From positions 1 to 34,970 of IMG/VR virus record IMGVR_UViG_3300027759_000021: a stretch of 34,970 nucleotides of DNA. One strand, written 5' to 3'. Shown piece by piece: positions 128 to 34,970 of this stretch (positions are counted from its first letter, which is position 1; the number at the start of each line of letters is the position of its first letter). The translations under genes were made by a program, and so were the position numbers. This stretch comes from a virus. The notes under the pieces are model-generated. The model did no database searches and was not told where the DNA came from. It worked only from the letters and a program-made list of their open reading frames with translations.

Positions 128-197
128 CTTTGTCAGGCTGTACCGAATCTATAGCACAAATGGTTACATTAGAAAGGTTTAATCCCCGCAAAAGCAT
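1..197 (-). CDS. DUF5672 glycosyltransferase-like protein, N-terminal part (continues at the right end of the window)
   Basis: The frame opens at ATG (195-197) and reads leftwards through position 1, resuming in the right-hand terminal repeat to stop at 34471. Once the ends are joined the gene is about 570 nt (189 residues). The N-terminus contains NVTICAIDSVQPDKAKKAIE followed by LFIDHMSINSRQAYS, the beginning of a DUF5672-type fold, a family thought to transfer sugars. The start lies inside the end of the PAPS-reductase-like gene (19 nt overlap), consistent with translational coupling in the same leftward operon. No strong Shine-Dalgarno sequence is visible before this ATG, so the exact start is moderately certain. 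Confidence 0.8.
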   Translation of the reverse strand, partial: MLLRGLNLSNVTICAIDSVQPDKAKKAIERSKRHIQFGGELFIDHMSINSRQAYSKFVLQELHKY

Positions 198-1015
198 GGT
201 ATTCCTTCTTCGTCTGTAGGAAACATATCATCATGGGACAAAGCAAATGCTTTTAACTCTGAATAACTTGGGCGGTCTTTGCGAAACCGACCACCATCCC
301 CAAAAGTTTTATTCGATGTCTGGACAGACATCTCTGCTTTTATCCACCAATCGGCTCTAGACGGCTTTTCCCTAATAAGGCTAATAATCTGATGAGTAGG
401 CTTTAAAAAGCATAAATCACAGTTGCCGTGCATAGTTACCCCATTCATATTGGGTAAACCTAAGTCAAATGACTGTGCTTTCCAAAATTCACCTACAGTT
501 TGCTTAGTAACCCCAGCAGTAACCAATGGGGTACGCTCTCTGTCCATTTTGGCAGCCCTACGCATTTCGTCAGCCCTTATTCCTACCCAATCCATATTTT
601 CATTGTGTTTCCACCCTAAAGACTTTAAATAAGTATGTATGGCTCGTATTTTGAGCCTGGCGGTGCATATTCTAGCTACTGGGTTAGGAAGATAACCTGT
701 GGACTCATGTATTAATTCCATAAACGGTTCACCATTGCGACTAGCAGTTTCAAATGTAACTTTTTTCCAACGGTCTGCAATCTTTTCTGCCCATTGGTAT
801 TCAATCCAATGTATCTCTACTCCCCAATTTTTGCCACAGTCCCTTACAAACTCAAGCGTAGCTTCTTCTTCTTTGCCTGTATTGGCAAAACAAACAATAG
901 CCTCTTCTGGCAAACCATTATTGCTCTGCAATATGCGCCAAAGCATATAAGCTGATGTACGACCACCACTAAAGCTAATGACTGTTGGCTCTAGTATTTC
1001 AAATGGGTCACTCAT
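179..1015 (-). CDS. PAPS reductase-family PP-loop protein (CysH/DndC-like)
   Basis: A 278-residue PP-loop ATP pyrophosphatase of the phosphoadenosine-phosphosulfate reductase superfamily. The ATP-binding PP-loop is SGGRTSA at about residues 16-22. Further family marks are FANTGKEEEATLEF (43-56), RICTARLK (115-122), GIRADEMRR (145-153) and Cys pairs C199-x2-C202 and C274-x-C276 that could bind metal or an Fe-S cluster. Family members reduce PAPS or activate substrates for sulfur transfer, as in DndC of DNA phosphorothioation. In phages the substrate is usually unknown. The start overlaps the stop of the upstream HTH gene (TAATG) and its own end overlaps DUF5672, so the three form one leftward operon. 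Assignment to the superfamily is firm; the reaction is inferred only. Confidence 0.88.
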   Translation of the reverse strand: MSDPFEILEPTVISFSGGRTSAYMLWRILQSNNGLPEEAIVCFANTGKEEEATLEFVRDCGKNWGVEIHWIEYQWAEKIADRWKKVTFETASRNGEPFMELIHESTGYLPNPVARICTARLKIRAIHTYLKSLGWKHNENMDWVGIRADEMRRAAKMDRERTPLVTAGVTKQTVGEFWKAQSFDLGLPNMNGVTMHGNCDLCFLKPTHQIISLIREKPSRADWWIKAEMSVQTSNKTFGDGGRFRKDRPSYSELKAFALSHDDMFPTDEEGIPCFCGD

Positions 1016-1287
1016 TAATCTTCAATCTGTATAAATGCGTTTTGCTTTGGCAACAATTCGGGCCATATTAAGAAATAGTTTTTAGGAAATAAGTCTTGCC
1101 TGGTTACCAAACCATGACTTACTTCTTCTATTCTTGCCCCTAAAAGCATAAATTTATCGCCAGGAATACCTCTTACACGCCAGTTGGAAACGGCAGCAGA
1201 GTCTACTTTGCACATTCTTGCTACCTTTGCCGTACCGCCTAAAAGGTCAATAATTGCGCTGTCGGTTAGTTTTAATTTTGTGTCCAT
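1015..1287 (-). CDS. Small HTH DNA-binding regulator (Cro/YdaS-like)
   Basis: A 90-residue protein whose first half reads as a helix-turn-helix: IIDLLGGTAKVARMCKVDSA (13-32) followed by AVSNWRVRGIP. The 'GGTxKVA...VS.W..RGIP' pattern is typical of short Cro/YdaS-type regulators of prophages and phages. The C-terminal half (FPKNYFLIWPELLP) has no recognised domain. It is the first gene leftward from the divergent region 1288-1397, which contains palindromes suited to a dimeric repressor, so autoregulation and control of the rightward recombination operon are likely. No integrase is present, so a lysogeny switch cannot be assumed; it may only time early transcription. Confidence 0.75.
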   Translation of the reverse strand: MDTKLKLTDSAIIDLLGGTAKVARMCKVDSAAVSNWRVRGIPGDKFMLLGARIEEVSHGLVTRQDLFPKNYFLIWPELLPKQNAFIQIED

Positions 1288-32847: not shown

Positions 32848-33017
32848 TTTCCCCATTCTCCCCTGTTACCTAATGCGTATTGTTGTTGATAATCCGCAAA
32901 ATATTGATGTAAAACTTCTTTGTCAATAATGTAATTTCTAAACCAAGCCAATCCTTTTTTATGTCGTAAATAACACAAATACCTTACTGCACATTCATGT
33001 TTAGTTTTCTCATGCAT
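32799..33017 (-). CDS. Hypothetical 72-residue protein
   Basis: Starts MHEKTKHECAVRYLCYLRHK and continues AWFRNYIIDKEVLHQYFADY and YALGNRGEWGKWILKNTLSQ. The 'HECAVRYL ... RGEWGKWIL' pattern resembles a small phage protein family often found next to replication genes (DUF7696-like), but I hold this weakly. It overlaps the O-like replication gene by 34 nt and the two-TM gene by 49 nt, unusually deep overlaps for this window. All three frames have plausible starts, so dense coding is more likely than a false call. Confidence 0.58.
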   Translation of the reverse strand: MHEKTKHECAVRYLCYLRHKKGLAWFRNYIIDKEVLHQYFADYQQQYALGNRGEWGKWILKNTLSQQQGLGI

Positions 33018-33355
33018 TTCTGTTTAAGGCTGTCGTATGAGTCATAACCAGTACCCAAGAGTCCAAGTTCTTTAGCTTTAGCTTCAATTCCTTCATTGCT
33101 AAACATCCATCGTTTGTCAATTTTTTCTTTCTTGGGTTCTATTACTATTTCATCTTCCCATCTTTCACCATTTAACCAGGTAGCTGGATAGGGGATAAAT
33201 TCTAACTCAACTTCTTTTGCTTTCCAGTATTGGCAATGTGTGTCAATAGCTTTTGCAGCCATAAGTTGTTGCTCTGCGGACAATTTTGCCCAGGCTTTTC
33301 TTGCAGTTGCTTTAGCAATTTTTCGTGGATATAAAGACCAGAATTCATCAAACAT
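32984..33355 (-). CDS. Phage replication protein, C-terminal O-like domain
   Basis: A 123-residue protein beginning MFDEFWSLYPRKIAKATARK with AWAKLSAEQQ and later EFIPYPATWLNGERWEDE (51-68). The 'FxxFWxxYPxKxxKxxARKAW ... FIPxPATWLNxxRWxD' pattern is the typical C-terminal part of phage replication proteins of the O/DnaT-like type that recruit the host helicase. Here the protein consists almost only of this domain, without the N-terminal winged helix that binds the origin. It therefore needs another origin-binding factor or the host's DnaA. Gene order places it first in the leftward replication block after two small genes. Confidence 0.76.
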   Translation of the reverse strand: MFDEFWSLYPRKIAKATARKAWAKLSAEQQLMAAKAIDTHCQYWKAKEVELEFIPYPATWLNGERWEDEIVIEPKKEKIDKRWMFSNEGIEAKAKELGLLGTGYDSYDSLKQKCMRKLNMNVQ

Positions 33356-33850: not shown

Positions 33851-34000
33851 TCAATAATTGCCAGGTGTGCAATTTTTTGCATCATCTTTGGCAGAAGTTA
33901 AAGTAGCAAAAGTTCTTTGTGATATAACTTTGCCATTAAGTTTTACTACTAACAAATAGCCACCGGTGTGGCCTTTGCCTTTGTAAATGTAAGCTGTCAT
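33851..34000 (-). CDS. Hypothetical 49-residue protein, first gene of the replication block
   Basis: Starts ATG at 33998-34000 with AAGGGG 7 bases upstream and ends TGA at 33851-33853. The product MTAYIYKGKGHTGGYLLVVK then LNGKVISQRTFATLTSAKDD and AKNCTPGNY looks like a compact beta domain. It is the first leftward gene after the non-coding region 34001-34470, so its promoter and leader lie there. No function recognised. Confidence 0.65.
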   Translation of the reverse strand: MTAYIYKGKGHTGGYLLVVKLNGKVISQRTFATLTSAKDDAKNCTPGNY

Positions 34001-34470
34001 TTAAATTCCCCTTTAAATGTTTACTCGTTAGTGAGTAATACCAGTTTCCTACTTTTTTATTAATCTGTATATTAGGATTTTCCCTTAGTTGCAAATTTAC
34101 AACATAGTTTGACCAAGGGTGATAGGGAACTATCAGCCGACCCAATGTCTATGACATCTAGTCCTTCACTAAGATAATGGTCATTCGATGGAGAGTTTGT
34201 ATCACCCGAGTCCTCTCCGTCTTGTGTAGTCGCCATTTAACGCTACGAGGCTTGCAATGGGGTTGTCACCAGCCTATCTTTTCTTCCACGCCACCGATTT
34301 AGGTGCTTAGTACGCCTAGAGTGCGGCAGAAATAGAAAAACCCCTAAAAGGTAATCTCTAAGGTGAAGTTGCTTAAAAAATGCGCCTTGAACATTTATTA
34401 AACACTCAGAAACTACCCTTTAAGGGTCTAGGCATTTTTACAACAGACTTCACTCTGCACAATAATTGTA
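34001..34470. other. 470-bp intergenic region, GC-richer and rich in hairpins
   Basis: This stretch between DUF5672 (leftward, ends 34471) and the first replication-block gene (starts 34000) has no ribosome-site-supported gene. The segment 34112-34330 is visibly richer in G and C than its surroundings and holds several hairpins (separate entry). AT-rich flanks (34043-34080; 34370-34410) could hold promoters; none matches consensus well. A perfect 13-bp palindrome ACCCTTTAAGGGT is at 34415-34427, with an imperfect relative ACCCCTAAAAGGT at 34340-34352, 75 bp apart. Confidence 0.6.
34112..34330. ncRNA. Candidate structured non-coding RNA (hairpin cluster)
   Basis: Successive hairpins are TGATAG-GGAA-CTATCA (34120-34135), ATGTC-TAT-GACAT (34145-34157), GGAGAG/CTCTCC (34190-34195 with 34213-34218) and AGGCT+TGCAA paired with TTG(t)CA+AGCCT (34248-34275). 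Two weaker stems are CACC/GGTG (34292-34304) and AGGTG/CGCCT (34301-34317); they share bases, so only one can form at a time. The first loop is a GNRA tetraloop if read on the plus strand. An alternative is a 54-residue minus-strand frame (34072-34236) without ribosome site. Orientation and function are unknown. Confidence 0.45.
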
Positions 34471-34970
34471 CTACAAATATTTGCCCATGTGAAAATCTCC
34501 ATGAAAGCCAAAAGTTGCTAAATTGCTAAGTTCTCTTTCGTAGCTAAAATACCTTGCTAGTTCTTCTGGCGCAAATTTAACCCCATTGCTAACCAAATAG
34601 TCCCTGTTTACATGGCAAATAAGGTCATCTTCATTAAGGTTTTTATAAATAAATTTGGGAGTGTCGCATAATTGCAACAACTTCTTGCTTCTAAGGGAAA
34701 ACCCTCCATTACCTACACGCAACCCTTCAGGATGCCAAGGCCAGACTGCACCTATGTAATCGTAGTCTAAAAATTTGGGCTTCCAAGCGCTTGCGTCAAT
34801 TACCCAACCATCCCATTGGACCATTAAAACAAAGTCGGTGTGGATGTATTTATGCAGTTCTTGAAGGACAAATTTGCTATACGCTTGCCGACTGTTAATG
34901 CTCATGTGGTCAATAAACAATTCACCACCAAATTGAATATGTCTTTTGCTTCTTTCTATGGCTTTTTTGG
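34471..34970 (-). CDS. DUF5672 glycosyltransferase-like protein, main part (continues at window start)
   Basis: This part encodes LFIDHMSINSRQAYSKFVLQ, HTDFVLMVQWDGWVIDASAW (the 'VLMVQWDG' hallmark), YDYIGAVWPWHPEGLRVGNG and GFSLRSKKLLQLCDT, ending GFHGDFHMGKYL before TAG at 34471-34473. These are the core motifs of DUF5672; the 'QWDGW' and 'GNGGFSLRSKK' motifs match GT-A-like sugar transferases. A TTG at 34918-34920 should not be taken as the start: the frame runs through the right end and, once circularised, begins at ATG 195-197. It completes the leftward operon HTH - PAPS reductase-like - DUF5672. Confidence 0.88.
   Translation of the reverse strand, partial: KKAIERSKRHIQFGGELFIDHMSINSRQAYSKFVLQELHKYIHTDFVLMVQWDGWVIDASAWKPKFLDYDYIGAVWPWHPEGLRVGNGGFSLRSKKLLQLCDTPKFIYKNLNEDDLICHVNRDYLVSNGVKFAPEELARYFSYERELSNLATFGFHGDFHMGKYL
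34844..34970. repeat. Terminal direct repeat, right copy
   Basis: These bases are identical to positions 1-127. Removing one copy gives a circle of 34,843 bp and an intact DUF5672 gene. See the left copy for interpretation. Confidence 0.93.

Follow-up and report, generated by a model that had tools for sequence, protein, structure and literature searches.

Structured RNAs at the head of phage early regions

The put RNA of phage HK022 is about 70 nt long, folds into two stem-loops, and occurs in two copies per phage, putL and putR, on the PL and PR transcripts, the PR start lying about 270 nt upstream of putR (PMC9378689). The RNA binds the zinc domain of RNA polymerase beta-prime, suppressing termination in cis (PMC9378689). 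As a structured RNA within an early phage transcript, put is, by analogy, the nearest candidate for an element that works like the RNA described here, which is referred to as type A. In contrast to put, type A is about 225 nt long, has at least six helices and two pseudoknots, and is present in one copy, such that the size, fold and copy number that define put are not found.

By location, the nearest known element is the Betaproteobacteria-1 RNA (RF02932, type B below), which Rfam classifies as an sRNA gene. It is similar to type A in size and complexity, lies at the head of the early region, and occupies the same genomic site in two sister phages (L025 and L007, with RF02932 scores of 95.8 and 90.6). 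However, there is no match in sequence or structure in either direction, as judged by comparing the window with RF02932 and the covariance model R1 with type B. GOLLD, which is often phage-associated, and ROOL are much longer families than type A. Both are large structured noncoding RNAs, and GOLLD is lake-derived (PMC12286853). Unlike type A, they are represented in Rfam, and the window reaches the gathering threshold of neither.

Genome context

The window, that is, the whole stretch of DNA analysed, is a virus record of 34970 bases whose ends share a 127-bp direct repeat (1-127 and 34844-34970), probably marking a circular assembly and not genuine termini. The repeat falls within the DUF5672 gene, and its presence makes a 34843-bp circle the best reading of the genome. 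The minus strand carries, in order, a Cro-like gene, a PAPS-reductase-like gene, the DUF5672 gene, the RNAs, and early genes that include a replication-initiation-domain protein (Table 1), and recombination genes (Erf, SSB) run in the opposite direction from about position 1495. Only distant relatives of the portal protein are found among named phages (39% to a Bradyrhizobium phage). The DUF5672 gene, located after the Cro-like gene and before the RNA, is optional cargo. An obligate partnership of the RNA with the PAPS-reductase-like and DUF5672 genes was considered and rejected, as both genes are optional and DUF5672 is missing from most other loci.

A preliminary description of this DNA had drawn attention to positions 34112-34330 as a cluster of hairpins, less AT-rich than its surroundings and located between the DUF5672 gene and the replication block, that could represent a second noncoding RNA. 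The shift in composition is evident, with a G+C content of 49.3% compared to 40.1% for the window and 33-34% for the flanks on either side, a value equalled by only 1.4% of 219-base windows. The placement is also correct, given the PF18922 match on one side and the replication-initiation-domain protein on the other.

Table 1. Positions of the RNAs, their helices, and neighbouring genes and signals in the window
Feature	Position	Strand	Remarks
Cro-like repressor gene	1015..1287	-	phrog_35; upstream of the RNA site on the circular genome
PAPS-reductase-like gene	179-1015	-	
DUF5672 gene	34471..34970, continuing 1-197 across the end repeat	-	PF18922, E 8e-20
Promoter-like TTCACA-17-TACAAT	34465..34493	-	10/12 match; overlaps DUF5672 stop; precedes module 1
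Module 1, adjacent upstream pseudoknotted RNA	34328..34458	-	T-run 34340-34328 at its end
Type A RNA, noncoding, multi-helix, two pseudoknots	34103..34327	-	grammar, covariation, independent second scan
Helix H1 (CGC...GCG)	34313..34325	-	loop ACTCTAG; third pair CG/UA/GC/GU across copies
PK1 loop strand	34317..34320	-	pairs with 34288-34285
PK1 second strand	34285..34288	-	
Helix H2	34292..34305	-	loop TAAATC
Helix H3	34248..34275	-	34275-34272 with 34251-34248; encloses H3b
Helix H3b	34270-34267 with 34259-34256	-	both-side changes at 4/4 pairs
Helix H4	34226..34246	-	loop TTAAATGG; both-side changes at 6/6 pairs; 99.1% of cells paired
Helix H5, 9 positions	34187..34221	-	34221-34213 with 34195-34187
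PK2 5' strand GGGTGAT	34201..34207	-	H5 loop; pairs with 34123-34117
PK2 3' strand ATCACCC	34117..34123	-	
Helix H6	34139..34163	-	34163-34161 with 34141-34139; by inspection, 70 copies, not counted separately
H6 variable tip hairpin	34157-34153/34149-34145	-	by inspection, 70 copies
54-residue frame	34072..34236	-	rejected as gene
Operator-like inverted repeat TTACTC-N6-GAGTAA	34021..34038	-	before first early gene; read from sequence
First early ORF	33851..34000	-	49 aa; downstream of and on same strand as RNA
Replication-initiation-domain protein	32984..33355	-	early block; phrog_270, E 7.5e-18

A conserved noncoding RNA

Approximately 225 nt of the minus strand encode a conserved noncoding RNA, of which we are virtually certain, and its real extent of approximately 34327-34103 differs slightly from that first noted. 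The proof of its structure is comparative, not energetic. Folding energy was rejected as proof (z of -1.0 for the RNA alone), as the RNA on the minus strand is not significantly different from shuffles (z -0.99) and the plus strand of the stretch is no better than chance (z -0.44). A longer minus-strand piece, 34060-34460, gives a z of -4.55 that is mostly due to the neighbouring RNA.

A single helix grammar, with at least six helices and two pseudoknots, parses all 70 of the distinct full copies among the matches listed. In a neutral MAFFT alignment of 58 distinct copies from IMG/VR phage contigs, 98.4% of the pair cells are standard, as compared to 79.3% in shuffled and 32-44% in slid controls. 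The corresponding covariation score is 0.537 (0.177 shuffled, 0.04-0.09 slid), and compensatory changes exceed both types of control, as would be expected of a structured noncoding RNA. Since the wobble cells comprise 61 G-U and only 6 A-C combinations, the element is assigned to the minus strand and to action as RNA. An RNAalifold prediction on the full-length alignment, in which H5 is misaligned, was weak.

The first search pattern fixed TGGAAG, GGC and TTAAATGG, and the invariance of these columns is therefore partly by construction. The stems of H2, H4 and H5 were outside the pattern, yet covary. For instance, the 11 distinct 3-bp arm pairs of H2 are all perfect Watson-Crick matches (1.9 in shuffles), the arm pairs of H4 are perfect in 7/7 cases, and H5 is represented by 32 distinct arm pairs that are 86.5% paired, against 60% when shuffled (0/2000). 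In addition, a second and independent pattern scan, with only the 3' half fixed, yielded new loci with the same 5' half, which was absent from the pattern, and these loci carry CCCCA/TGGGAG pairs.

Both pseudoknots show compensation. In the case of PK1, the pairs UCCA/UGGA and CCCA/UGGG are found, with further variants in the second-scan loci, and the interaction is rebuilt differently in L288 and L289, where the loop GGG is found with CCC. The covarying partners of PK2 are GGGTGGT/ACCACCC, GAGTGGT/ACCACTC and AGGTGAA/TTCACCT, the PK2 count being a lower bound because its 3' anchor was mis-picked in some rows. The hairpin loops for which there is support have the sequences ACTCTAG, TAAATC, ACAACCC or similar, and TTAAATGG; the loop of the 3' hairpin is AGTG in the window and UUCG-like in relatives. 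The several hairpins that had been proposed are demonstrated through covariation, with the exception that the GNRA loop included among them has no part in the supported fold. The suggestion of a second RNA, separate from the adjacent one, is upheld on the minus strand, and the very strong conservation of structure answers the concern that the folding was accidental.

Distribution

Relatives of the DUF5672 gene led to 74 loci, in about 30 of which the block directly after the DUF5672 stop is conserved, and a pattern scan for type A retrieved at least 119 stretches. Well over a hundred viruses from lakes carry type A, which occurs once per genome in many tailed phages from metagenomes. With the covariance model R1, 17 of 18 phage records of type A yield a single copy, and five records with type B or C yield none. 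Two apparent instances of two copies per genome were dropped, as L139 is the same copy as L062, and the copies in 3300044633_000120 are located at both contig ends.

No match to the window was obtained in Rfam 15 at the gathering threshold, including that of RF02932 (49.4 bits), and lowering the search to an E-value threshold gave only weak chance matches (mir-5014 and similar). Type A was not found in GTDB genomes, where the single match (L187) lies in protein-coding DNA and is due to chance, nor in INPHARED phages and plasmids; type B was not found in INPHARED either. No RNA downstream of cro came up in a search of the literature. Type A is absent from Rfam and may represent a previously uncatalogued RNA, with the proviso that an earlier report in a metagenomic RNA survey may exist. 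Phages thereby gain a large, uncatalogued and strongly structured RNA family.

Alternative occupants of the early-region site

In the wider set of loci, the gene directly upstream of the RNA site is most often Cro-like, with DUF5672 and others optional. With 4 exceptions among about 90 loci, the ORF that comes first after the RNA has the same orientation as the RNA, and the replication block follows. On unrelated contigs of 53-98 kb, the RNA lies ahead of ParB-like and helicase genes, as named by eye from their sequences.

The occupancy of the site was counted in 80 loci anchored on the Cro-like gene and chosen blind to the RNA. Type B is present in 36, type A in 22 and type C in 4, such that 62 of the 80 carry exactly one of the three types and none carries two together. 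Of the remaining 18 loci, seven are too short downstream or end within a cargo gene, and at least eight are simply RNA-less (L199, L203, L205, L206 and L210-L213). In these RNA-less phages, the Cro-like gene is followed by TTGACCTAGGTCAA, a promoter- or operator-like palindrome that has one base changed in L213, and then by the early genes. Type A is therefore an interchangeable module at a site that otherwise holds the Betaproteobacteria-1 RNA, dissimilar sequences, or nothing. No homology between type A and the types B, C and D was found when these were searched with R1 at E-values up to 10.

Types C (L009, L048 and L068) and D (L056, L057, L065 and L066) are dissimilar occupants of the site after the DUF5672 stop and have no match in Rfam. 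They are probably structured RNAs as well, and are called distinct on the basis of sequence only.

The upstream RNA and flanking signals

Type A is directly preceded in the window by module 1, a pseudoknotted RNA with 15 distinct arm pairs that are 96% paired, compared to 71% in shuffles (0/2000), and that is unrelated to type A. Module 1 is missing from many relatives. A second pseudoknot in module 1 was seen by eye only. Module 1 precedes different downstream RNAs, and unrelated sequences take its place in L009, L048 and L068.

In the copies of type A without module 1, a -10-like hexamer is found a fixed 7 nt before the RNA, and many copies have a terminator-looking T-run about 10 nt upstream. 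Terminator-like signals follow the RNA in only 7/67 cases. In several lineages (L115, L263 and L103), a start codon lies approximately 30-50 nt after the RNA. Other lineages possess a good sigma-70 promoter after the RNA and ahead of the first gene, which means that those genes need not share the transcript of the RNA. A promoter conserved at this position in all lineages is not generally supported, as 9/12 matches occur in 31 of 67 loci versus 25 in shuffles; at 10/12, there are 13 matches versus 5 in shuffles for the same 67 loci. Several locus types have operator-like repeats, including TACTC-N6-GAGTA, TAGGG..CCTA and TTAAGTTCACTTAA, after the RNA and ahead of the first early gene.

Possible functions of the RNA

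Type A is probably an exchangeable RNA that regulates infection. A regulatory RNA was one of three options in the preliminary description, and it is the one that still stands. Tentatively, and with slightly less than even confidence in the statement as a whole, we favour a conserved RNA that acts on the early region in cis while nascent. The RNA would be made early, either from its own promoter directly in front or on a transcript coming through module 1. It would fold during transcription and would act mainly in cis on the early transcript, its target being either polymerase or early mRNA. Serving as a leader or as an element of the antitermination type, it would set the expression of early genes by a put-like logic with an unrelated structure. 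The leaning towards cis is based on the orientation and position of the RNA, the lack of a conserved terminator, and the nearby start codons in several lineages. Against this mechanism are the downstream sigma-70 promoters, the upstream T-run, the close phages that are RNA-less, and the single copy, which is unlike put.

Action in trans is a close rival, and although we favour cis, it is a serious possibility that type A is transcribed from its own promoter, released by processing, and binds a protein or mRNA of host or phage origin during takeover or immunity, with the downstream genes served by their own promoter. The fixed spacing of the -10-like hexamer where module 1 is missing is consistent with this arrangement, as are the separate promoters ahead of the first gene in several lineages, the filing of RF02932, an occupant of the same site, as an sRNA gene, and the dispensability of the RNA. 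However, a released RNA fits poorly with the lack of a conserved terminator at the 3' end and with the leading position in the early region that type A holds in nearly all loci. In addition, its loops are very highly conserved from one end to the other, which is improbable for a simple antisense RNA.

It is unlikely that type A is instead an accessory RNA, or part of an RNA-protein particle, that functions in defence, counter-defence or superinfection exclusion, is unrelated to early control, and has variants that are exchanged as other phage cargo is. The variants are mutually exclusive, some sites are empty, and the optional PAPS-reductase-like and DUF5672 genes share the same place, all of which would suit such cargo, but the early-operon position is conserved even in phages that lack those genes.

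The other two options in the preliminary description, a replication origin or a packaging site with hairpins acting in DNA, are very improbable. Replication genes are close by, but an indispensable element should be present in all close relatives, whereas the eight phages listed above lack it; the site is also occupied by different RNAs, G-U pairs are kept where A-C pairs are not, and covarying helices and pseudoknots fit RNA. A small protein encoded by the 54-residue frame can practically be dismissed, as the frame is unconserved, reaching at least 40 aa in only around one in ten of 99 copies (the commonest lengths being 18, 15, 20 and 8 aa), and its ATG, which does occur in the copies examined, is within the conserved H4 loop TTAAATGG; the earlier statement that no supported gene covers the stretch is therefore accurate.

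Returning to an RNA that regulates early events, a broader and more speculative proposal, which may hold but is far from secure, is that the early-region site in a large group of freshwater phages acts as a cassette in which any of several complex but unrelated RNAs may reside, all performing the same job, an RNA-only control of early transcription or immunity. Besides type A and the Betaproteobacteria-1 RNA, the site would house at least two further dissimilar occupants, and in many cases a second RNA, with a pseudoknot and a T-run, would lie in front of the occupant. If the proposal is true, the variants would be swapped among phages in the manner of repressor or antiterminator specificities. 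The natural swaps and deletions in otherwise similar phages make the function of the RNA testable through comparison of phages with no difference other than at this site, and the orphan Betaproteobacteria-1 RNA gains both a context and look-alikes at the same site. In L025 (6509-6632), the Betaproteobacteria-1 RNA seems to be conserved for about 80 nt past the Rfam model, to approximately 6720, suggesting that the model may be 3'-truncated.
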